Source of the DNA: Rhodospirillales bacterium
Lineage (GTDB): Bacteria; Pseudomonadota; Alphaproteobacteria; Rhodospirillales; Shumkoniaceae
Assembly: GCA_028281785.1 (NCBI GenBank)
Contig: JANQJG010000165.1
Span: forward strand, 1-64,000
DNA: 64,000 nt
Direction: 5' to 3'
Below are positions 18,493 through 62,174 of this stretch, piece by piece. A program made the translations under genes and the position numbers. Each line of letters starts with the position of its first letter. Position 1 is the stretch's first letter. Under the pieces are notes generated by a model, which did not search any database, was not told the DNA's origin, and saw only the letters and a list, made by a program, of their open reading frames with translations.

Positions 18493-20769
18493 CTACGATC
18501 GGTCTTCTGGTGATCGTTCGATGGCACCGATCTCTTCGAGTTTTCGGATTATGGGGGTAAGCCTTTGTTCGTCTGGCTCAATCCCGGCATCGCTGCAGCT
18601 TCGGATATAGTTGCGCAACAACTTACAGGTGAGTTGGGCGAATGCCTGAGGAAGAGCAAGAAACGGAGGCGATATAACCAAAAGCCCGTCGCAGAAGCTC
18701 TCGGCTGCATCCAAGTGCCGACCCATTGTCCGTAGAATTGCACCTCGCGCACCGAACGACATCGCCAAGGCGGACGCAAAAGCATCCGGGCGATCGGCGG
18801 CGAGGGCGCGCCTGATCTTCACCGCTTCCTCGATTGCCGCCAGGGCGTCCTCACGGCGGTCGAGAGCAGCTAGGCAGTTCGACAGATTGTTGAGGGACAG
18901 GGCAAGCTCGGGCTGGAATGCGTCGAGGCGAGTGGCGGTAAGCGCGCGATGGATTTCCAACGCTCCTTCGATCGCCGCTAATGCGTCCTCGCGCCGGCCC
19001 AGAGCGCCCAGGCAGTTCGACAGGTTGCTGAGGGATTGTGCGAAGTAGGGCCGGAAGACGTCGGGGTGGGCGGCGGCGAGGCTGCGCCTGATCTCCACCG
19101 CTTCCTCGATTGCCGCCAGGGCGTTCTCGTGCCGACCGAGTTCGCAGAGGCGATTCGACAGGTTGTTGAGCGACGAGGCGAGATCTGGCCGGAAGGCGTC
19201 GGGGCGGGCGTCGGCGAGCGCGCGGTGGATTTCCACCGCTTCTTCGATTGCCGCCACGGCGTCCTCGCGGCGGCCGAGATCGGCCAGGCAGTTCGACAGG
19301 ATGATGAGGGACAGGGCGAAGTCGGGCCGGAAGGCGTCGGGGCTGGCGGTGGCCAGGACGCGCCTGATCTCCAACGCTTCCTCGATTGCCACCAGGGCAT
19401 CCTCGCGGCGGCCGAGAGCGCCCAGGTTAACCGACAGGTTGTGAAGGGAAAAGGCGAGGTCGGGGCGGTAGGCATCAGGGCGGGAGGCAGCGAGGTCGCG
19501 CTTGATCTCCACCGCTTCTTCGATTGCCGCCAGGGCGTCCTCGCGGCGGTCGAGAGCGTCCAGGCGAGCCGACAGGTTGTTGAGTGACCCGGCCAAATTG
19601 GGTTGGAAGGCGTCGGGACGGGCGTCGGCGAGCGCGCGGTGGATTTCCACCGCTTCTTCGATCGCCGCCAGGGCGTCCTCGCGGCGGCCGAGATCGGCTA
19701 GGCCGTTCGAGAGATTGCCGAGGGACTGGGCGAGGTCGGGCCGGAAGGCGTCGGGGCGGGCGGCAGCCAGGGCGCGCCTGATCTCCACCGCTTCCTTGAT
19801 TGCCGCGAGAGCGTCTTCACGGCGACCGAGATCGGCTAGGCGAGCTGACAGGGTGTTGAAGGACTCGGCGAGGTCGGGCCGAAAGGCGTCGGGGCGGGCG
19901 GCAGCCAGGGCGCGCCTGATCTCCACCGCTTCCTCGATTGCCGCAAGAGCGTTTTCGCGGCGGCCGAGATCGGCGAAGCGATTCGACAAGTTGCTTAGAG
20001 ACTGGGCGAGGTGGGAACGGAAGACATCGGGGCGGGCGGCGGCGAGGGCGCGCCTAATCTCCAACGCTTCCTTGATTGCCGCGAAAGCGTCCTCGCGGCG
20101 GCCGAGATCGGCCAAGCTGTTCGACAGATTGTTGAGGGAATTGGCCAAGTCGGGGCGGAAGGCGTCTGGGCGGGCGGCGGCGAGGGCACGACTGATCTCA
20201 ACCGCTTCCTCGACTGCCCCCAGGGCGTCCTCGCGGCGGCCGAGAGCGGCTAGGTTAGCCGCTAGGTTGTTGAGCGACTGGGCGAGGTAGGAACGGAAGA
20301 CATCGGGGCCGGTGTCGGCCAGGGCGCGCCTGATCTCCACCGCTTCCTCGATTGCCGCCAGGGCGTCCTCGCGGCGGCCGAGAGCGGAGAGCCGCACGGC
20401 AAGATTGTTTGCGAGCCTCGCGCGCTCCTCGGCTTCACTTCCTTCCTCTTCGATGTATGTCACCGCCTCATAAAGGATCGACGCGACGACTGCTCCCATT
20501 TCTCGAAGAGCCGTTGTGAGGTAGGGTATGTCCGGCTCGAGGAGTCGGGCAAGGTGCTCGTCAGGATGGGCTTCCAACCACTCCGCGGCGATTTGTCCGA
20601 TCGGATCCCCTGACTCGATCGCCACGCGCAGCGTAAGCGGAAGCACCCGACTTGGATTGGCGCTAATCGCTCGTTCGACTTTGGATCGTCCTCTATCCGG
20701 CCATCGCTGCGCGACCCAGTTCAGCTTCGTGAGGCCGTTGGTCGCCTCAACTTGGTTCAAGCCGCTCAT
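18493..20769 (-). CDS. Tandem TPR protein of an ATPase/TPR module
   Basis: This 758-residue protein has an N-terminal helical region (1-126). Twelve consecutive 46-residue repeats follow (about 127-678) of the pattern L-x-x-LGRREDALAAIEEAVEI-RRALA...RPDAFRP-LA-SLNNLS, then a short helical tail. This is a kinesin-light-chain-like tetratricopeptide pattern with a slightly long unit. Such arrays usually bind partner proteins and often act as the sensor of STAND ATPases. The gene begins 23 bp inside the end of the upstream P-loop ATPase gene, so the pair is translationally coupled or was once a single frame. A role in phage or stress sensing is inferred from architecture and island context only. 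Confidence 0.8.
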   Translation of the reverse strand: MSGLNQVEATNGLTKLNWVAQRWPDRGRSKVERAISANPSRVLPLTLRVAIESGDPIGQIAAEWLEAHPDEHLARLLEPDIPYLTTALREMGAVVASILYEAVTYIEEEGSEAEERARLANNLAVRLSALGRREDALAAIEEAVEIRRALADTGPDVFRSYLAQSLNNLAANLAALGRREDALGAVEEAVEISRALAAARPDAFRPDLANSLNNLSNSLADLGRREDAFAAIKEALEIRRALAAARPDVFRSHLAQSLSNLSNRFADLGRRENALAAIEEAVEIRRALAAARPDAFRPDLAESFNTLSARLADLGRREDALAAIKEAVEIRRALAAARPDAFRPDLAQSLGNLSNGLADLGRREDALAAIEEAVEIHRALADARPDAFQPNLAGSLNNLSARLDALDRREDALAAIEEAVEIKRDLAASRPDAYRPDLAFSLHNLSVNLGALGRREDALVAIEEALEIRRVLATASPDAFRPDFALSLIILSNCLADLGRREDAVAAIEEAVEIHRALADARPDAFRPDLASSLNNLSNRLCELGRHENALAAIEEAVEIRRSLAAAHPDVFRPYFAQSLSNLSNCLGALGRREDALAAIEGALEIHRALTATRLDAFQPELALSLNNLSNCLAALDRREDALAAIEEAVKIRRALAADRPDAFASALAMSFGARGAILRTMGRHLDAAESFCDGLLVISPPFLALPQAFAQLTCKLLRNYIRSCSDAGIEPDEQRLTPIIRKLEEIGAIERSPEDRS
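18736..20391. repeat. Twelve tandem 138-bp units (TPR coding)
   Basis: The coding sequence of the TPR protein contains 12 head-to-tail units of exactly 138 bp (46 codons), strongly alike at DNA level. Copy number could change by recombination or slippage. Frames open on the opposite strand across this block are by-products of the repeat. Confidence 0.85.
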
Positions 20770-29048: not shown

Positions 29049-29789
29049 ATGAAGGAGGGACGCAAGACAGTCATCGTCACCGGCGCGAGCCGTGGAATCG
29101 GCCATGCCATCGCAAGATGTTTCGTCGAGCGGGACTGGCGCATCATCACCTGTTCGCGCGGCGACGTCCCGCTCGAATGCAAGCGCGATCCCCACTGGAC
29201 CCTTCACGTTCCAACGGACCTGGGCGACGCCGAAAGCCTGACGCGATTCGTCGATGAGGCCAATCGGGTGATTGGCGACGGGCCATTGCACGCTCTCATC
29301 AACAATGCCGGTATATCGCCCAAGACTCCGTTCAAGGAGCGGCTGGGGTGCCTCAACGGGGAGATCTCGGCTTGGCGCGAGGTGTTCGAGCTCAACTTCT
29401 TCGCCGCGCTCAAGCTATCGCGCGGCTTCGCATCCGCGCTCCACAGGGGCGGCGGCTCGGTGGTGAACATCACCTCCATCGCCGGTCACTACGTCCATCC
29501 CTTCGCCGGGTCCGCCTATTCGATATCCAAGGCCGCGCTTTCGGCGCTCACCCGTCAGTTGGCGCATGAGTTCGCGGAGCTTGGGGTACGCGTCAACGCG
29601 GTGGCACCGGGCGAAATCGAGACGGAAATGATTCAGCCCGAATACGAGGTTCTGGTTCCGCGTATCCCGCTCAACCGCATGGGGGCACCGGCGGACGTGG
29701 CGTCCACCGTCTATTACCTTTGTTCGCCGGAGGCCGGCTACGTCACCGGCACGGAAGTCTGGGTGACCGGCGGACAGCATCTCTACTGA
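29049..29789 (+). CDS. Short-chain dehydrogenase/reductase
   Basis: This 246-residue classical SDR has the cofactor loop TGASRGIGHA, ALINNAG, VNITSIAG (catalytic Ser) and YSISKAA (Tyr-x3-Lys). The C-terminal GYVTGTEVWVTGGQHLY is typical of FabG-like enzymes. NAD(P)-dependent oxidation or reduction is certain as a family trait; the substrate is not known. It is a single gene, unrelated to the SDR at 7314 beyond family level. Confidence 0.85.
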   Translation: MKEGRKTVIVTGASRGIGHAIARCFVERDWRIITCSRGDVPLECKRDPHWTLHVPTDLGDAESLTRFVDEANRVIGDGPLHALINNAGISPKTPFKERLGCLNGEISAWREVFELNFFAALKLSRGFASALHRGGGSVVNITSIAGHYVHPFAGSAYSISKAALSALTRQLAHEFAELGVRVNAVAPGEIETEMIQPEYEVLVPRIPLNRMGAPADVASTVYYLCSPEAGYVTGTEVWVTGGQHLY

Positions 29790-30137
29790 ACGAGGTGGCG
29801 ACCTCGGGCTAGGGCCTGTGGACAGCTGGCACAAACCTTTCGCACCCTCCGCGTCCTTTAGGAATTGGTAAGGTTGACGCGCCAGACTGATGTCCGTGTT
29901 TTGCGGGCTTGTGGCAAGAAAGTTGGGAACGGTGCCCCGGGAAGCGATCCTGAGGTCAGGTGATTCATGGGTGTGCAGGTGTTGGCGTGAGGGGCGTACC
30001 CCTCAGGCCCCTCGACGCGTTCCCGCATCACTTGGCTGAGGAGCGGAGGTCCGGGATCGAGGCTCTCCCTCGGCCAGCCGAGTATGGCTCTCACAGGTTT
30101 TTGTCCAGCCCGCGTTTTGACGAGGACGGATGGACCC
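29790..30137. other. Leader region upstream of the coiled-coil gene
   Basis: About 350 bp without a separate gene. The open frame of the next gene reaches back to an ATG at 30084, so its start and promoter lie here. No clear -35/-10 pair was found. Confidence 0.5.
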
Positions 30138-33100
30138 GTGACCAACGCACAACTCGAAACCCGAACGGTGCAAGCCCATTTGGTCGAGCTACCCCTCGAG
30201 AATGAAGCGCGTTCGACGGAGGGTGATCCTCCGGCCGCGAATGAGTCTCAGGGCACGGCTCGCGGAGAGGGCGGGCCGACATCGCCGTCCACGGCGCCGC
30301 TCGGCCCCGAGATGTGGAAGGCGCCGTTCTATATTCGATACCGCTTCCTGAGTATCGTTGGCGTCCTGGCCTCCGCGGGCTGGATCGTCGTCTCCCTGCA
30401 CTACATCCAGAACCAGATGGGTTGGCCCAACCTGTTCAACCTGCTGCCGCATGAGCTCGGTGGCATGGCCGCCGGGATCCTTACACCCCTGGCCCTGATC
30501 TGGCTGGTCGTCGCGTTGCTGGAGCGGGGAACCCAGCTGCGCCGGGAATCGGCGGCGCTGCAATGGCACCTCAAGCAACTGACCTATCCATCCGCGCGGG
30601 CCGAGGGACGGGTGTCCGAGGTCACCGAATCCCTTAGACGTCAGGCTCGAGAGCTGACCAAGGTTACCGAGGATGCAAGCAGCCGCGCCGAGGCCGTCAC
30701 CGATGCCGTTCGTCGGCGGGTCGCCGAATTGGCGAAGGTTTCCGAGGACGCGGATCTGCGCGCCCAGTCGGTTGCCGAGCTGCTTCGCCGCCAGACCGAG
30801 GATCTGCAGGCCGTGACAGACCGGGCGGCAAGCCGTGCAAGGGAGACCGGCGATGACATGTTCCGTCAGGCCCAGCAGCTGACGGCCGTATCGGAACGGG
30901 CATCGGCCAAGGCCGAAGAGGCCAGCGAAACGCTCCGCCGGCGCAGCCAGGAACTCGCCGAATCCTTTGAGGAATCGGGTACGCGCGCCAAGGAGTCCGC
31001 GGACATGTTCCGGAACCGGGCGACCGAGCTGAACGCCGCGGCGGACGAGGTCGCGAAACGTTCGGAAGAAGCGGCGGCGTTTGTCGATCAGCGCATGGAG
31101 GGCCTTCTTGCCGCCTCGAGCCAAGCGGGAGACCGCCTGCGAACCGGCGCCGAGATGCTGCAAGGCCACTTCCAGGAACTCACGGAGCGTTCCGATCGAG
31201 CCTCCGCGCAGACCGACCGGATGGGCGAGGCTCTGCGCCGGCAGGCCGATACGCTTGACACGGTGGCGGAAAGGGTGGCCGGCAGGGTCGGCGAGATCGA
31301 GAAATTCCTGTCGCAGCAGACCCAGACCCTGGGCGAAACATCCGACAAGGTGGCGGCGCATGCCAAGGAGATCGGCATCGGCCTTGAGGAACAGAGCCAG
31401 CGGCTCCTCTCGACGTCCCAGCAGACCTCTGTCCAGGTCCAGGCGACCGGCGACGAGTTCCGCCGACAGGCTCACGATCTGGTCGCGGCCGCCGAAGAGG
31501 CTGTCACGCGCACGGGTACGCTCGGAGATCTGCTACAGCATCTGGTCAACGAGCTGTCGCAGGCGAAAGGCCAGGCACTCGCGGATGTCGAGGAGGCCGG
31601 CGAGGGCATCCGCAAGCGTTCCGACGAACTCGGTACGGTGTCACGCGACAGCCTCCAACGTATCGAGCAGGTCGGCGAGGCCCTTCGTCTGCAGGGCGAA
31701 GGCTTGGCACAACTCACGGATCAGGGACTGCTCCGGCTCACCGCGATGACCGAGGCCCTGCGCCGCGGAACGGTACAGGTCGCCGGCCTTTCGGATCAGG
31801 CGATCGAGGGCCTCGGAAAGGTCGCGGGAGATCTGGCCGATCGGACTCATGCGCTCGACGCCGCGGCCGAAAGGGGGATCGCCCGCATGGCGACCACGGC
31901 CGAGGCGCTGGAACACGGCGCTGGCATGATCGACGGGTCGGCGGATCGGGCCGGAGAGATGGTGGCCACCTTCCAGACTCACCTGGACCAGATCGCCGAG
32001 GCGGCCAACCGGGCGTCGACGCGTGTGGTCGAGGCGGGCGAGGCCGTGGAGGAGCGGACCAGAGGATTGACCGGCGCCTCGGACGAAGCGCTTCGCGAGG
32101 TCGAAGCCGTGGCTCGCGCGCTGGCGGAGCAATCGGAAAAACTGGATGTCACCGCTTCGAGGTCAAGCCGCCTTATCGCCGGCATGCGAGAGACGTTGGC
32201 TCGACAGGCGGAGCATCTGGAGGCGACTTCCGCGAAGGCCGGACAGCATGTGCAGAATGTCGGCAGCGAGCTTCGCCAAAGCCTGGGCCATCTGGTTGTC
32301 GCATCGGAGGACGCGGTCGCCCGCCTGCACACGGCGTCGGAGGCTCTGCATCGCGAAGCGGCGGACATCTCTACCAATTCGAGCGGTGCGGTCGACGACG
32401 TCGACCGCGTGGGCCGCGCCATGCACGAGCGGCTTCAGGAGATGAAGGGCGTCTCGGATCGGGCCGCCAAGGCCATTACTACGGTGAGCGACACTTTGCG
32501 TCGCCATTCCGAAGACCTGGTGTCCACTTCGGACCGGGCCGCCGACAACATCGGCACGGTGGGCGACATCGTTCAGCAACGCGCGTCGGAGCTGGATCAG
32601 CTCGCCGATCAGACGGTCCATCGCTTGCAGGAAGCCGGCGAGATCCTGCGGGATCGGGGCGAGGATCTTGGCGAGACCTCGGAACAAGCGGCCGCGCGGG
32701 TCGTCGCCGTCAGCGACTCGATGGATCGAACCCGCCAGGCGCTTTCCGACGGTGCGAACGCCGCGGACGCCCGCCTCCGCTCGGCCGTGGACGCGATTCG
32801 AGAGACGTCGCAGCAGGCAAACGAGGCGTCCGACGGCGCGGCGGAGCGGCTCGACATCATCTCCGGCACCTTGCGCCGACAGACGGAAGACCTCAACAAC
32901 AGCCTGGATCAGGCTGCGCAAGGGCTCAATACGGCGGGGGCGGGACTGCAACAGCGCTCGGAGGATCTCACGGCGGCCTATGACAACGCCTCGACGAAAC
33001 TGCGGGCGTTCGACGACACCTTGCGGCAGGAGATCACGACGCTCACGACCGCCTCCGGCGAGGCGGCCGAGCAGATCAGCAAGGTCGGGGACGTCCTGGG

Positions 33101-34307
33101 AGACCGATCGAACGAGGTCACGGCCACGGTGGATCGCGCCGTCAAGCTGACACGCCTGTTGACCAGCGGCCTGCGCCAGCATGCCAATCACCTGACGGCG
33201 GCTTCGGAAAAAGCGACGAGCCAGGTCGAGGCTGTCGGCGAGGCGCTAAGGCGGCGAACCCATGACATGGACGAGGTGTCGTCCCATGCCGTCGCCCGTT
33301 TGGCCCAGGCAAGCCAGCAACTGCGCCAGCGGATCAAGGACATCAAATCGGGAACGCAGGAAACCGCCGAGCAGATGGGCGACGCCACGGAAACACTCGG
33401 CGTCAAGGCGGAAGACCTCTCCACCAAGTCGCAACAGGCGATGGCCGAACTCAGGGCCATGGGCGATCTCATCGCACAACGCGCGGCCGAGGTGTCCAGC
33501 GCGTCGGAGGAGGCGGCCGCCAAGCTTGGCCGGGTCGGCGAACACATCGGTGCCCAGGCCTCGGAAATGGGAACGACGGCCAGCCGGCTTTCGGCCCAGG
33601 CCGAGGACACCGGCGCCAGCCTAACGCGCCGGGTCGAGGCTCTCACATCCGCCTGCGAGGCCGCAGATGCGGGCATGCAGAAGCTTGGCGGGATTCTGGC
33701 GGAGCGTTCGAGCGAGGTGGAGCGTATTTCGCAGACGGCCCTCGGTCAGGTCGGCGCCTGGGACGACACGCTGGGCAAGCGGTGTGAGAGGCTGGAGGGC
33801 GCCTCCGCCCAGGTGGTCGAGCAGACGCGGGAGATGATCGCGGCCATCGACCGGCGAACGGATGATCTGGAGCGCGTGGCGAAGGACGCGGGCCAAGTCT
33901 CTGACGCCCTGCGCGCGGAGGCGAGCAAAGTCGCCGCGGATGACTTCCTGCACCGGGCGACGTTCGTCTCGGAGCGGCTCCAGTCGTTGGCCGTCGACAT
34001 GAACCGGATCATGGAAACCAGTATCTCGGATGAGGACTGGCGCCGTTTCAACAAGGGCGACAAGGCGGTCTTTGTCCGCAAGATGCTGGGCTTCAAGGAC
34101 AAACAGCAGCTCGCGGCCATCCGCGAAAAGCATCGCGAGGACGAGGAGTTCCGCCATTATGTCGGCCGCTATCTGGCCCAGTTTGAAACGCTTTTGCAGG
34201 AGGCCAAGAAAGCCGACCATCAGGGCATTCTGAGTACGACCTTCCTGTCTTCCGACATGGGCAAGGTGTACCTGCTGCTGGCCCGGGCCCTCGACCGCGA
34301 GGTTTAG
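30138..34307 (+). CDS. Giant two-TM coiled-coil protein with 25-residue repeats
   Basis: This protein of about 1,389 residues (1,407 if ATG 30084 is used) starts preferably at GTG 30138, after a GGACGGATGGA stretch. It has a cytosolic Pro/Ser-rich N-terminus and two transmembrane helices (about 70-89 and 111-128). From about residue 167 an unbroken run of 44 repeats follows, 43 of exactly 25 residues and one of 21, with consensus L-RRQ-x-x-EL-x-x-x-SD-x-A-x-R-x-x-x-V-x-E-A. A compact C-terminal domain follows (about the last 130 residues: IMETSISDEDWRRFNKGDKA, FVRKMLGFKDKQQL, HYVGRYLAQFETLL). No known family was recognised. The layout (two N-terminal TMs plus a long coiled coil) recalls polar landmark proteins such as TipN of Caulobacter, by architecture only. 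Confidence 0.8.
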   Translation: MTNAQLETRTVQAHLVELPLENEARSTEGDPPAANESQGTARGEGGPTSPSTAPLGPEMWKAPFYIRYRFLSIVGVLASAGWIVVSLHYIQNQMGWPNLFNLLPHELGGMAAGILTPLALIWLVVALLERGTQLRRESAALQWHLKQLTYPSARAEGRVSEVTESLRRQARELTKVTEDASSRAEAVTDAVRRRVAELAKVSEDADLRAQSVAELLRRQTEDLQAVTDRAASRARETGDDMFRQAQQLTAVSERASAKAEEASETLRRRSQELAESFEESGTRAKESADMFRNRATELNAAADEVAKRSEEAAAFVDQRMEGLLAASSQAGDRLRTGAEMLQGHFQELTERSDRASAQTDRMGEALRRQADTLDTVAERVAGRVGEIEKFLSQQTQTLGETSDKVAAHAKEIGIGLEEQSQRLLSTSQQTSVQVQATGDEFRRQAHDLVAAAEEAVTRTGTLGDLLQHLVNELSQAKGQALADVEEAGEGIRKRSDELGTVSRDSLQRIEQVGEALRLQGEGLAQLTDQGLLRLTAMTEALRRGTVQVAGLSDQAIEGLGKVAGDLADRTHALDAAAERGIARMATTAEALEHGAGMIDGSADRAGEMVATFQTHLDQIAEAANRASTRVVEAGEAVEERTRGLTGASDEALREVEAVARALAEQSEKLDVTASRSSRLIAGMRETLARQAEHLEATSAKAGQHVQNVGSELRQSLGHLVVASEDAVARLHTASEALHREAADISTNSSGAVDDVDRVGRAMHERLQEMKGVSDRAAKAITTVSDTLRRHSEDLVSTSDRAADNIGTVGDIVQQRASELDQLADQTVHRLQEAGEILRDRGEDLGETSEQAAARVVAVSDSMDRTRQALSDGANAADARLRSAVDAIRETSQQANEASDGAAERLDIISGTLRRQTEDLNNSLDQAAQGLNTAGAGLQQRSEDLTAAYDNASTKLRAFDDTLRQEITTLTTASGEAAEQISKVGDVLGDRSNEVTATVDRAVKLTRLLTSGLRQHANHLTAASEKATSQVEAVGEALRRRTHDMDEVSSHAVARLAQASQQLRQRIKDIKSGTQETAEQMGDATETLGVKAEDLSTKSQQAMAELRAMGDLIAQRAAEVSSASEEAAAKLGRVGEHIGAQASEMGTTASRLSAQAEDTGASLTRRVEALTSACEAADAGMQKLGGILAERSSEVERISQTALGQVGAWDDTLGKRCERLEGASAQVVEQTREMIAAIDRRTDDLERVAKDAGQVSDALRAEASKVAADDFLHRATFVSERLQSLAVDMNRIMETSISDEDWRRFNKGDKAVFVRKMLGFKDKQQLAAIREKHREDEEFRHYVGRYLAQFETLLQEAKKADHQGILSTTFLSSDMGKVYLLLARALDREV
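30636..33923. repeat. 44 units of about 75 bp (25-residue coiled-coil repeat)
   Basis: Counted by eye in protein: 18 units of 25 residues, one of 21, then 25 of 25. The first begins RRQAREL (30636) and the last ends LRAEA (33923). At DNA level the units are diverged, so this is an old repeat held by protein structure. Twenty-five residues equal two heptads plus one hendecad. Confidence 0.8.
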
Positions 34308-57080: not shown

Positions 57081-60000
57081 ATGGTTACCTTATCTGAAAC
57101 GGCCGGATCGGCGAGTTTGCCCCAGGACTTCGTTCCGACGCTCCTGCTGAATGTGGAGAGCGGAACGGACGTCGTGGCGCTTCCCGAAGGCTTCCACCTG
57201 CCGTCGGCGGATTTCGCCCGTGCGGGGGGCGATCTGCTGATCACCGTGGGCGACGGTACGACGATCCTGGTACGCGGCTTCTTCGATGGGCAGACTCCCC
57301 CGCCCCTGGCGCTGCCGGAGGGCGGCCAGCTCTCCGGTGAATTGGTCGCGACTCTCGCCGGACCGCAGGCGGCGGGTCAGGTCGCCCAGTCCCAGCTGGG
57401 ACTCTCGGCGCAGCCGATCGGGTCCGTGGAGAGCGTCAGCGGCAGCGTGATCGCCGTCCGGGCCGACGGAACGCGGGTCGAATTGGACGTCGGCGATCCC
57501 GTTTTCCAGGGAGACATTCTCGAGACGGCGGAAGACGGGGTCATCGGAATCGTCCTGGCCGACGAGACCACGTTCTCCATGGCCGAGAACGGCCGCATGG
57601 TTCTCGACGAGATGGTGTACGACCCCGGCGCGCAGGAAGGGTCGATATCCTTCTCGGTCGTGCAAGGCGTGTTCACCTTTGTCAGCGGTCAGGTGGCCAA
57701 GACCGACCCGGATGCGATGACGCTGACGACACCGGTCGCGACGATCGGCATTCGTGGAACGCAGGTCGGCATCGCGATTCCGGACGGCATCAAGCTGAGC
57801 GTCGTTCTCATGCTCGAAGCCGACGGATTCATCGGCGAGGTGATCATCCGCAACGCCGCCGGGATCGAGGTGATGAACCTCGCGAGCCAGCTTATCGAGG
57901 TTCTCGGCCTCGGCCTGCCCCCGACTCAGCTGGGTTTCGTGACTCTGGAGGAGCTGGTCAACACGTTCGGGAGCAGCCTCCGCCATCTTCCCCTCGAGAC
58001 CGGCTCCGGCAACGACTATGGCGTGCAGCAGGGCGGCCTCGACCAGACCGAGGAGGAAGAGGAAGGCCTCGAGGACGAAGAGGTCGAGGATCTCGAAGAG
58101 GAGCTCGTTGCCGAGGAGGTCGAGGAGGAACTCGTCGAGGAACTCGTCGATCTGGAGACGGCGGGCGAGACGGAAGGCGAGGGGGAGTTCACCGAGGGTT
58201 TCACCAACGTCACGGACGGTTTCGAGACCAATCGCCTTGGGGTCATCAATCCCTTCACCGCGACGAACGGCGGTACAGGGACTGGAGGGACCGGGGATAC
58301 GAACGGCGACGGCGGCACGAACGACGACGACGATTTCAACGAGGACGAGGAAACGCCTGTGGACGCCGTCGAGGGAGATGGCGGGACCGGAGGCGCTTCG
58401 GGCGCTCCGGACGTCTCGGTTTCCGAGGCTTCCGGCGAGGAGGATACCGAGATTGCATTGGCGATCTCGGCCTCGGTCCCCGACGGAACGGATACGATTG
58501 ATTTCGTCACCATCAGCGGAATCCCTGACGGCGCGTCGCTCTCGGCGGGCACGGACACTGGCGGCGGCGTCTGGACGCTGGAGCCGGGTGACCTTGCCGC
58601 TCTGACGATCACGCCGCCCAGCGATTTCAGCGGCGTCTTTTCCGTCAGCGTCACCGCGACCACCGCCACGGGCGGGACGGAGAGCTCACCCCAGCCCTTG
58701 TTGGTCTCGGTCGCGCCGGTACCGGACGTACCGGATCTTTCAGTCTCTCCGGCGTCGGGCGACGAGGACACGGCGATTGCGCTCGGCATCTCGGCCTCGG
58801 TTCCGGACAGTACGGAAACGGTGGACTTCATCACGATCAGCGGGGTCCCGGAGGGCGCGTCTTTGTCTGCGGGGACGGACAATGGCGGCGGTGTCTGGAC
58901 GCTGGAGCCCGGGGACCTTGCCGGTCTGACGATCACGCCCGCGGACGACTTCAACGGCGATTTCGACCTGACGGTGACCGCGACCTCGACGGACGGTGGC
59001 GAGAGCGGCGAACATACCCTCTCGGTGTCAGTTGGCGAGGAACCGGACGTTCCCGATGTCTCGGTCTCTCCGGCGTCGGGCGACGAGGACACGGCGATCG
59101 GGCTCAGCATCTCGGCCTCGGTACCGGACAGCACCGAGACGGTGGATTTCGTCACGATCAACGGGGTTCCGGACGGCGCGTCTTTGTCTGCGGGGACGGA
59201 CACCGGCGGCGGCGTGTGGACGCTGGAGCCTGAAGACTTGGCCGGCCTGACAATTACGCCGCCAAGCGACTTCAATGGCGATTTCGACCTGACGGTCACG
59301 GCGACCTCGACCGACGGCGGCGAGAGTTCGGGGCAAACCCTGCCGGTCTCGGTGGGCGAAGAGTCGGACGCGCCCGAGGTCTCGGTTTCGCCGGCGTCGG
59401 GCGACGAGGATACGGCGATTGGGCTGAGCATCTCGGCCTCGGTTCCGGACAGCACCGAGACGGTGGACTTCATTACGATCAGCGGGGTTCCGGACGGCGC
59501 GTCTTTGTCTGCGGGGACGGACAATGGTGGCGGTGTCTGGACGCTGGAGCCCGGGGATCTTGCCGGCCTCACGATTACGCCTTCGGACGACTTCAACGGC
59601 GATTTCGACCTGACGGTGACCGCGACCTCGACGGACGGTAGCGAGAGCGCGGCGCAAACCCTGCCGGTCTCGGTAGACCCGGTGCCGGAGGACGCCAATG
59701 TCACCTTCCGCGTGAGCCAGGACACCACCGGCGCGCCCGATTACGATATCGACAGCACCGACGGGTTCGACTTGCCCCCGCCGGATGACTACGGCGTCCC
59801 CCAGACGGCGGAGTTTGAGGGCAGAACCGTCGAATATACGTATAAGGACGCCGATACCGCGTCCGTTTCGCTGCTCGACGGCTGGAACAGCATCAAGAAC
59901 ATCGAGGCGGCCAGCGGCGACGCGGCGGATATCATCCTCAGCAACTTCGTCCATACCGACGTTGCTCTCGGCGACGGCGGCGACAGCTCCGTCGTCATCG

Positions 60001-62174
60001 ATGGCGCGAAGCGCGGCAATATCGCAACAGGCGATGGAAACGACTTCATCGACGTCGATGCCCGCAGCAATGGGAATGGTTGGAGCAACGTCTTCGATAT
60101 CGATTCAGGCGCCGGCGATGATCGCGTCGAACTCGACGGGGACAGGGACGTCACGGAGTTCGTCGTGCAAGCCGGCGCGGGCGAAGACGAAATCGTCCTC
60201 GAGGACAATTACGACAATTCGGAGGTTACAGGCGGGCTTGGCGACGATCTGATCGATGGCGGCGAAGGCTTCGATGTCGCCGTGTTCTCCGGCACCTGCG
60301 ACCAATACGAGATCACGGTCGACGAGGACTCGGGGGACATCACGGTGGCGGGACCTGATGGCACAGACACGGTCCGGGATGTCGAGGTGCTTCGGTTCGA
60401 CGACAAGGACCTCAAGGTTGAGGATCTTCTGGCGCCGCCTTCGGTTTCCGTCCAGGCTGCCTCGGGCGACGAGGACACGACGATCGCTTTGTCCATCACG
60501 GTCACGCAGACCAACCCCACGGATCCGGTCAACGCCATCGTCATCGATGGTCTGCCAGACGGCGCGACCCTCCTGGTCGGCAGCGACAGCGGATTGACGC
60601 TTGATGGGACTCGCATCACGGGCTCGGGCCCGAATGGGCGATTGACCGATGACGACCTGTCGGATTTGACCAATGGGAAGCTGTCGGTCACACCGCCGGC
60701 GAATTCTGACGTGGATTTCAGCCTTTCCGTCACCGCGGAAACCGAAGGCGGCCGTACGAGTGAGCCGGCCAACCTGCCGGTCACGCTGAACGCCGTGGCG
60801 GATCCGCCGGTGGTCACCGCGGTTCTGGGCGAACCGATCCTGCCGGCCGCGGCGCAGCTCGCGGCGATTGCGCCTGTTTTGGCGAGCGTCGATGACGCCG
60901 TGGTCTATCCGCTGCAGATCACGGTCGAGCTTACCGACCTCGACGGCTCGGAGACCTTGTCCGACATCACGGTTAGCGGTCTGCCGGACGGCGCGACACT
61001 CTCGGCGGGCACGGATACGGGCAACGGCGTCTACAAGCTCACGACCGCGCAGCTCAACAACCTGACGCTCCGGGTTGGCGAGGATGTCACGGATGACTTC
61101 TCGATCGACGTGAGCGTCTCGTCCGTGGAGACGGAGGGCGGCGATACGGAAACCTCCTCGGTCGCGGTCGAGGTTCTGGTCAACGATCCGCCCGTGCTCT
61201 TCGGTGACGGCGAGGCAGCCGTCGGAGCCGGCCAGTCCGAGGCGCTGAGTGACGACGATCTGAGGTTGGAGGACGAAGAGAGCAATGCTGACGAGCTCGT
61301 TTACGAGCTCGTCGACGACGTCGACCTCGGGGCGCTTTATCTTGGCGACGGTGCCGGCGGTCGAAAAGAGCTTGATGTCGGCGACACTTTCACCCAGGAA
61401 GACGTGGACCTCGGGCTCCTGGTGTATGAGCAGGATGGCGATCTTGTCCACTTCTGGGACCCGGAAACGCCGGACTGGCCGGAGGCCTCCGAGGTCCTAC
61501 AGTCCAATCTCACAATGCCATTGGAAGCCGAAGGGGTGACCGTCACTTTCGAAGGCGAGCGGGCATCCTTTCACAACACGTTGGGGTGGTTCCGCTTCGA
61601 TGATCAGGGCAATCCCACGGATCCTCAGATCATCTGGGTCGACGCTTCCAACGGCGTTTTGCCCAAGGGGACGACAGCCAGCCTGGAGGGGCTGTCTCCT
61701 GGCGAGGAGTTCGGCCTTTTCATCGTCCAGGACGGCGCCCGCAAGTTCCCGTGGCTCGATGGCCAGGTTAGCTCCAACAATACGCTACGGTTCGACGAGG
61801 AAGGCAACCTCGAGTTCGTCAATCAGGGCGGCCAGGTCGTGCAGGAGATCGGCAGTAAAAACCTGTTCTTCTCGGACGATGCCGCGCGTAACCCCGATGG
61901 CCTGAATCATGCCATCGCGGGACTGAAAGATGGCGAGCTCAAGGTCGGTTTCGAGGATTTGACGGGCGGCGGCGACAAGGACTTCGACGACGTCCTCTTC
62001 ACGCTTCGCTATGAGGGGGTGTTGGGGCCGCGCGAGTCGGTTCCCGACGGCTTCACGGTAACCGCCCGCGATGGCGAGGGGGTTCAGGTCGCCGACAACG
62101 ACGATCCGTCTCAAGGCTACACCGTGACCGACGGCGAGGCGGATTTCGAGATCACGATCGACAATATGAACTGA
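57081..62174 (+). CDS. Large FecR / Ig-repeat / DUF4114 surface protein
   Basis: This 1,697-residue protein has an N-terminal retention-like region (1-110). A FecR-type domain follows (about 112-240; GSVESVSGSVIAVRADGTRV, MTLTTPVATIGIRGTQVGI). After a very acidic Glu-rich stretch (320-360), four tandem Ig-like repeats of about 106 residues follow (SPASGDEDTAIGLSISASVP...DGASLSAGTD). Then come an RTX-like part (TGGLGDDLIDGGEGFDVAVF), two more diverged repeats and a DUF4114 domain (LKVGFEDLTGGGDKDFDDVL). It is probably a secreted or surface-bound adhesin, exported by a type I route that is not encoded here. The start ATG 57081 is preceded by GATGAGGGG. Confidence 0.8.
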   Translation: MVTLSETAGSASLPQDFVPTLLLNVESGTDVVALPEGFHLPSADFARAGGDLLITVGDGTTILVRGFFDGQTPPPLALPEGGQLSGELVATLAGPQAAGQVAQSQLGLSAQPIGSVESVSGSVIAVRADGTRVELDVGDPVFQGDILETAEDGVIGIVLADETTFSMAENGRMVLDEMVYDPGAQEGSISFSVVQGVFTFVSGQVAKTDPDAMTLTTPVATIGIRGTQVGIAIPDGIKLSVVLMLEADGFIGEVIIRNAAGIEVMNLASQLIEVLGLGLPPTQLGFVTLEELVNTFGSSLRHLPLETGSGNDYGVQQGGLDQTEEEEEGLEDEEVEDLEEELVAEEVEEELVEELVDLETAGETEGEGEFTEGFTNVTDGFETNRLGVINPFTATNGGTGTGGTGDTNGDGGTNDDDDFNEDEETPVDAVEGDGGTGGASGAPDVSVSEASGEEDTEIALAISASVPDGTDTIDFVTISGIPDGASLSAGTDTGGGVWTLEPGDLAALTITPPSDFSGVFSVSVTATTATGGTESSPQPLLVSVAPVPDVPDLSVSPASGDEDTAIALGISASVPDSTETVDFITISGVPEGASLSAGTDNGGGVWTLEPGDLAGLTITPADDFNGDFDLTVTATSTDGGESGEHTLSVSVGEEPDVPDVSVSPASGDEDTAIGLSISASVPDSTETVDFVTINGVPDGASLSAGTDTGGGVWTLEPEDLAGLTITPPSDFNGDFDLTVTATSTDGGESSGQTLPVSVGEESDAPEVSVSPASGDEDTAIGLSISASVPDSTETVDFITISGVPDGASLSAGTDNGGGVWTLEPGDLAGLTITPSDDFNGDFDLTVTATSTDGSESAAQTLPVSVDPVPEDANVTFRVSQDTTGAPDYDIDSTDGFDLPPPDDYGVPQTAEFEGRTVEYTYKDADTASVSLLDGWNSIKNIEAASGDAADIILSNFVHTDVALGDGGDSSVVIDGAKRGNIATGDGNDFIDVDARSNGNGWSNVFDIDSGAGDDRVELDGDRDVTEFVVQAGAGEDEIVLEDNYDNSEVTGGLGDDLIDGGEGFDVAVFSGTCDQYEITVDEDSGDITVAGPDGTDTVRDVEVLRFDDKDLKVEDLLAPPSVSVQAASGDEDTTIALSITVTQTNPTDPVNAIVIDGLPDGATLLVGSDSGLTLDGTRITGSGPNGRLTDDDLSDLTNGKLSVTPPANSDVDFSLSVTAETEGGRTSEPANLPVTLNAVADPPVVTAVLGEPILPAAAQLAAIAPVLASVDDAVVYPLQITVELTDLDGSETLSDITVSGLPDGATLSAGTDTGNGVYKLTTAQLNNLTLRVGEDVTDDFSIDVSVSSVETEGGDTETSSVAVEVLVNDPPVLFGDGEAAVGAGQSEALSDDDLRLEDEESNADELVYELVDDVDLGALYLGDGAGGRKELDVGDTFTQEDVDLGLLVYEQDGDLVHFWDPETPDWPEASEVLQSNLTMPLEAEGVTVTFEGERASFHNTLGWFRFDDQGNPTDPQIIWVDASNGVLPKGTTASLEGLSPGEEFGLFIVQDGARKFPWLDGQVSSNNTLRFDEEGNLEFVNQGGQVVQEIGSKNLFFSDDAARNPDGLNHAIAGLKDGELKVGFEDLTGGGDKDFDDVLFTLRYEGVLGPRESVPDGFTVTARDGEGVQVADNDDPSQGYTVTDGEADFEITIDNMN
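58404..59691. repeat. Four tandem ~318-bp Ig-like coding repeats
   Basis: Within the surface-protein gene, four head-to-tail units of about 318 bp (106 codons) encode near-identical Ig-like domains; the last three are most alike. Such a block may vary in copy number between strains. Confidence 0.75.

Follow-up and report, generated by a model that had tools for sequence, protein, structure and literature searches.

The window, which is the whole stretch of 64,000 nucleotides that was analysed, spans positions 1 to 64,000 of the forward strand of contig JANQJG010000165.1 (assembly GCA_028281785.1), from a Rhodospirillales bacterium of the Shumkoniaceae. It contains a gene for a membrane protein with a very long helical rod, the parts of which are listed in Table 1; an in-frame GTG at 30138 offers an alternative start, giving a product of 1389 aa. 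The two N-terminal transmembrane (TM) helices recognised in a preliminary description were confirmed, at residues 88-106 (TM1) and 128-146 (TM2). As positive charges lie before TM1 and after TM2, the positive-inside rule would place both protein ends, and hence the rod, in the cytoplasm. At the opposite end, the C-terminal domain (CTD, about 120 residues) is predicted (mean pLDDT 85) to be compact and to continue the rod helix. It received no name in scans of Pfam and NCBIfam; a search of its profile against solved structures retrieved only weak, unrelated chains, and a Foldseek search with the CTD model returned no match at E <= 0.001, so that the fold offers no clue to function. The neighbouring genes are housekeeping genes, and a promoter and terminator scan yielded nothing above chance.

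Table 1. Coordinates of the rod gene, its parts and its upstream neighbour.
Feature	Positions	Strand	Basis or remark
Whole ORF, 1407 aa, start ATG	30084..34307	+	Single match in own genome
Variable N-terminal tail preceding TM1	30084..30341	+	Mean identity 0.14 (14 orthologues, residues 1-75)
Conserved transmembrane hairpin module: TM1, TM2, then ERG..YP..A..RV	30342..30614	+	Mean identity 0.50
Rod, 44 units (18x25, 1x21, 25x25 residues)	30636..33923	+	Segmentation reproduced
Rod units 1-3, best conserved part of rod	30636..30860	+	Mean identity 0.51-0.57 vs rod mean 0.31
Unit 19, 21 residues in three plain heptads, site of the conserved 4-residue phase skip	31986..32048	+	Segmentation, phase tracker
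Conserved all-helical CTD	33924..34304	+	Profile searches, predicted structure
Short-chain dehydrogenase gene, upstream neighbour, outside the system	29049..29789	+	Retained in several families across the order

Elsewhere in the window, a 758-aa tandem-TPR protein is encoded at 18493-20769 on the reverse strand, with a 138-bp DNA period (11.6 copies, 77% match); because this DNA-level repeat is far more regular than that of the rod gene, it suggests a recent expansion. A 1,697-aa protein (57081-62174, forward strand) combines FecR-like, Cadherin_3 and DUF4114 domains, and its gene carries a 321-bp repeat in four copies (58398-59674). The product is probably a large adhesin-like protein, either secreted or at the cell surface.

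Periodicity of the rod

Segmentation of the rod from nucleotide 30636 was reproduced exactly, the last unit ending in LRAEA at nucleotide 33923. The number of units and their lengths thus stand as given in the preliminary description, which had called the repeats exact; they are so in length and not in sequence, as pairwise identity among units averages 21% and reaches 48% at most. The 25-residue period sought by that description is pronounced: self-comparison under BLOSUM62 gave peaks at lags 50 (z = 21.7), 25 (z = 20.5), 75, 100 and 125, with lower values at the heptad and hendecad lags (lag 7, z = 6.0; lag 11, z = 7.1). Lags 25, 50 and 75 still reached z = 6.3, 7.8 and 6.3 after shuffling within residue classes, which holds the hydrophobic/small/polar pattern fixed, and a charge pattern (R-R-R/Q, then E/D, then D/E) recurs every 25 residues. 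The strongest hydrophobic Fourier period is 3.57 residues, or 25/7, and the core positions (4, 7, 10/11, 14, 18, 21 and 25) match 7+7+11, supporting the division proposed earlier; 25 residues make seven helical turns. Far from being absent in close orthologues, the repeat recurs in all full-length orthologues examined from the order, the highest score of each falling at lag 25 or one of its multiples.

Two details of the earlier geometry needed amendment. Per residue, a 25/7 rod advances 100.8 degrees, a heptad coil 102.9 and a relaxed helix 99.2-100. Supercoiling should therefore be reduced, with roughly 30-45% of the heptad value left, rather than very low. The 21-residue unit had been termed a stutter, which in standard usage is a 4-residue insertion; it is instead the one unit that lacks the stutter present in the other 43. 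An alignment-free phase tracker likewise registered a single internal 4-residue skip, in agreement with the segmentation. Prolines are absent from the last 1,090 rod residues of the window protein and 13 orthologues (14 x 1,090), over which the net charge runs from -29 to -58. If fully helical, a rod of 1,096-1,125 residues would extend about 163-167 nm.

Rod length and phase in orthologues

Across nine genomes and families, the window's included, 1,125 rod residues align at 28-43% identity to the window protein, free of gaps save for one in L035; MAFFT may prefer ungapped solutions at such low identity, and lengths anchored on the CTD, together with the phase tracker, concur with its alignment. 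Other rods differ in length by 7 (L042, L034), 11 (L045), 196 (L037) or 588 residues (3 x 196, L033), such that the changes observed overall amount to 1, 7, 11, 196 or 588 residues. Those in L033 and L037 represent three and one extra blocks of 196 residues, each with its own 4-residue skip, and the identity of 78-83% among three of the four blocks in L033 indicates that the duplications are recent. In most orthologues the tracker, which requires no alignment, locates the skip 646-668 residues ahead of the CTD.

Between species, unshifted units gave the best matches (0.251 and 0.210) and displacement by any number of units gave 0.180 at most, from which it follows that the units are old and orthologous. 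Recent tandem expansion of a single unit was considered and excluded, given this result and the low identity among units. Beyond unit 3, mean unit identities range from 0.20 to 0.42; invariant columns include R185, Q187, R201, R236 and G256. To judge from conservation, these columns and rod units 1-3 likely mark contact sites near the membrane.

Retention of length while sequence diverges is an accepted signature of coiled-coil spacers (PMC5082667). The window protein shares this signature and differs from the spacers so described in being a membrane-anchored bacterial rod, in its non-heptad 25-residue unit, and in length changes that come in blocks of 196 residues. It is this rigidity of the rod, in the sense of constant length, that is new here.

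Family relations and distribution

Contrary to the earlier view that no known family carries such a repeat, the CTD has homologues in proteins of GPR/RgsE type, and rods of 25-residue period occur in most class members examined. GPR and RgsE are proteins of 2,115 and 2,089 aa with two TMs, a helix of 1,700 aa and apolipoprotein repeats (PMC8262873, PMC7327166). We compared them through orthologues from Martelella, proteins of 2,081-2,124 residues that end in the same domain (hhalign 99.8%, E 4.6e-28, 114 columns, 36% identity), and which were taken as GPR/RgsE-type because their length, N-terminal TMs and PF01442 match agree with the published features; two N-terminal TM segments exceeded the hydropathy cut in 2 of the 4 Martelella copies and one in the other 2. 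Common to the window protein, GPR (growth pole ring protein, Atu1348, Agrobacterium) and RgsE (SMc00190, Sinorhizobium) are two N-terminal TMs, a very long helical rod and the CTD at the C-terminus. The rods themselves differ: those of GPR type, as seen in Martelella, comprise ~1,750-1,850 aa of hendecad repeats (11/22/44 residues; 11/22-residue period of 3.65) and score far above the PF01442 cut-off (212-234 bits), whereas the window rod has 1,096-1,125 aa in 25-residue units (3.57) and remains below it (41.4 bits vs a cut-off of 90; E 1.6e-10). A PF01442 search across the organism's own genome gave no match. Between the hairpins the resemblance is weak (E 0.001-0.07 for a hairpin-only profile against GPR-type proteins, vs 0.17 for the best shuffled control); this profile had been trimmed and rerun with controls after a version including the first rod units also matched rod controls. 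Lacking a hendecad rod of ~1,700 aa or more, the window protein is classed with the wider family as a relative, and not as GPR proper. Distant RgsE homologues have been reported from Emcibacterales and Rhodospirillales, with a different role suspected outside Rhizobiales (Krol et al., PMC7327166), and the family link is therefore not new.

The likeness to polar landmark proteins remarked upon in the preliminary description is also supported. TipN, as published, pairs two N-terminal TMs with a large coiled coil at the C-terminus (PMC9178275), and the window protein shares these features; TipN of Caulobacter crescentus has 882 aa (PMC13170164). GPR has been called similar (PMC8546619) or analogous (PMC13170164) to TipN, which recruits TipF and contacts ParA (PMC9178275) and whose overexpression produces ectopic poles (PMC5347347).

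The C-terminal domain, which had looked conserved from one sequence, was present, nearly always as a single copy and at the extreme C-terminus, in 47 of the 60 genomes sampled from the order and 153 of the 387 sampled from the class. Most full-length orthologues in the order have 1,371-1,424 residues, and the upstream dehydrogenase gene is kept at 73-80% identity in L033, L036, L037, L039, L040 and L044, which supports orthology. Profile searches found neither hairpin nor CTD in G032, G034, G050, G042, G057 and G049; as these genomes are near complete, gene loss is likely. The joint absence of both modules implies that they travel as one protein, and that of the gene from several near-complete genomes that its function is not universally required.

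A scan of named genomes with the full protein gave no match, and with the CTD the matches were to Martelella and Parvibaculum-like genomes. Proteins of Parvibaculum and its relatives (L124-L171) possess the hairpin, 25-residue rod and CTD of the window protein, and differ in having rods of only about 430-560 aa with weaker periodicity. Between larger clades the rod varies from about 430 to 2,400 aa, indicating that no single length is needed class-wide. Among class relatives, a repeat of 29 residues scores highest in the rods of L095 and L100 (z 14-15) and adds a third class to those of 25 and 11/22/44; L098 (G143) is a very divergent relative with a 25-period rod of 2,220 residues and a weak CTD match (E 4e-11).

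In a tree of the CTD, a single clade (100/100) unites nine proteins that have hendecad rods, and it sits among proteins from Parvibaculum-like genomes whose rods have 25-residue units; the tree is unrooted, the fork around this clade is weakly supported, and L095 and L105, with rods above 3.62, are placed elsewhere. This topology suggests that the hendecad rods of GPR may have arisen inside a lineage of 25-residue rods.

Proposed function and its rivals

We put at about 60% the probability that the window protein is the order's orthologue within the GPR/RgsE family, to which TipN probably belongs as well, and that it acts at a pole or septum as a membrane-anchored landmark with a spacer rod of fixed length. 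The reading draws on the observed architecture, CTD homology, single copy, 25/7 rod, and constraint on length and skip. The two-TM hairpin would anchor the protein in the inner membrane and leave its two ends cytoplasmic, and the proline-free rod would form a continuous, weakly left-handed coiled coil, presumably multimeric, with the helical CTD as a docking head at its far end, about 163-167 nm away. Thus built, the protein would probably mark a pole or the division site, the rod serving as a spacer that fixes how far from the anchor the CTD and its partners lie, or that sets how an assembled ring is spaced. Published work states that GPR is required for polar growth and that its overexpression yields extra growth poles (PMC8262873, PMC7327166). 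The organism's own genome encodes both PopZ and MreB. Rhizobiales, to our knowledge, lack MreB, and the presence of the two proteins indicates that polar-hub machinery is present while growth of the Rhizobiales style is probably absent. Against the polar-scaffold reading, GPR serves polar growth whereas the organism has MreB, GPR rods are longer with another repeat, the hairpins resemble each other weakly, a different role has been suggested for homologues beyond Rhizobiales (PMC7327166), several near-complete genomes of the order lack the gene, and rod length varies among larger clades.

More tentatively, and at somewhat less than even odds, the polar scaffold may be a length-locked spacer, whose 44 units of 25 residues and one conserved skip were frozen through the divergence of the order, with length shifting only in steps compatible with a coiled coil, including blocks of 196 residues (about 29 nm). 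On this view, the Rhizobiales GPR would descend from such a scaffold and would have exchanged its 25/7 rod for a hendecad one on recruitment to polar growth.

The same family and anatomy could also be those of a cytoskeletal or mechanical element that runs laterally along the membrane, its length kept by in-register packing, as in intermediate filaments or tropomyosin, with no measuring of distance. We regard this as unlikely: the net negative charge and regular 25-residue charge pattern would suit such packing, as would the heptad- or hendecad-sized indels and the conserved skip, and GPR appears as a 200-nm ring in the title of a 2019 paper (cited in PMC13170164), yet packing in register usually conserves surface residues, whereas most units past the third diverge freely, and a filament-forming tail or head motif was not found in the protein.

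A good deal less probable is an apolipoprotein-like protein, whose amphipathic helices would lie on membrane or lipid surfaces and for which the PF01442 match would be functional, a role for which that E-value speaks, and which accords with lipid binding as raised hypothetically by the authors of the GPR work (PMC8262873). Against it stand the shortfall in bit score, and the 25/7 hydrophobic stripe of a coiled coil, with Ala, Leu or Val at core positions and no prolines. Apolipoprotein A repeats are units of 11 or 22 residues, usually punctuated by proline. With its match sub-threshold and its period wrong, an apolipoprotein function was rejected as the primary reading. It is scarcely credible that the protein serves an unrelated function (a secretion tape measure, a ZorA-like tail, or an MCP- or SMC-like rod) and resembles GPR by coiled-coil composition only, since the matches to SMC, Mce and ZorA models that would favour this lie in the rod and well below their cut-offs, while it is the non-repetitive CTD that carries the link to GPR; phage, MotA and ATPase modules are absent, and the neighbours are housekeeping genes.

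These findings tie an unannotated, order-wide gene to the polar scaffold family, with the CTD as a testable family signature, and the suggested origin of the hendecad rods of GPR bears on the evolution of polar growth. The exactness of the rod, together with the natural variants that carry insertions of 196 or 588 residues, provides a handle on the question of distance measurement by long coiled coils in bacteria.
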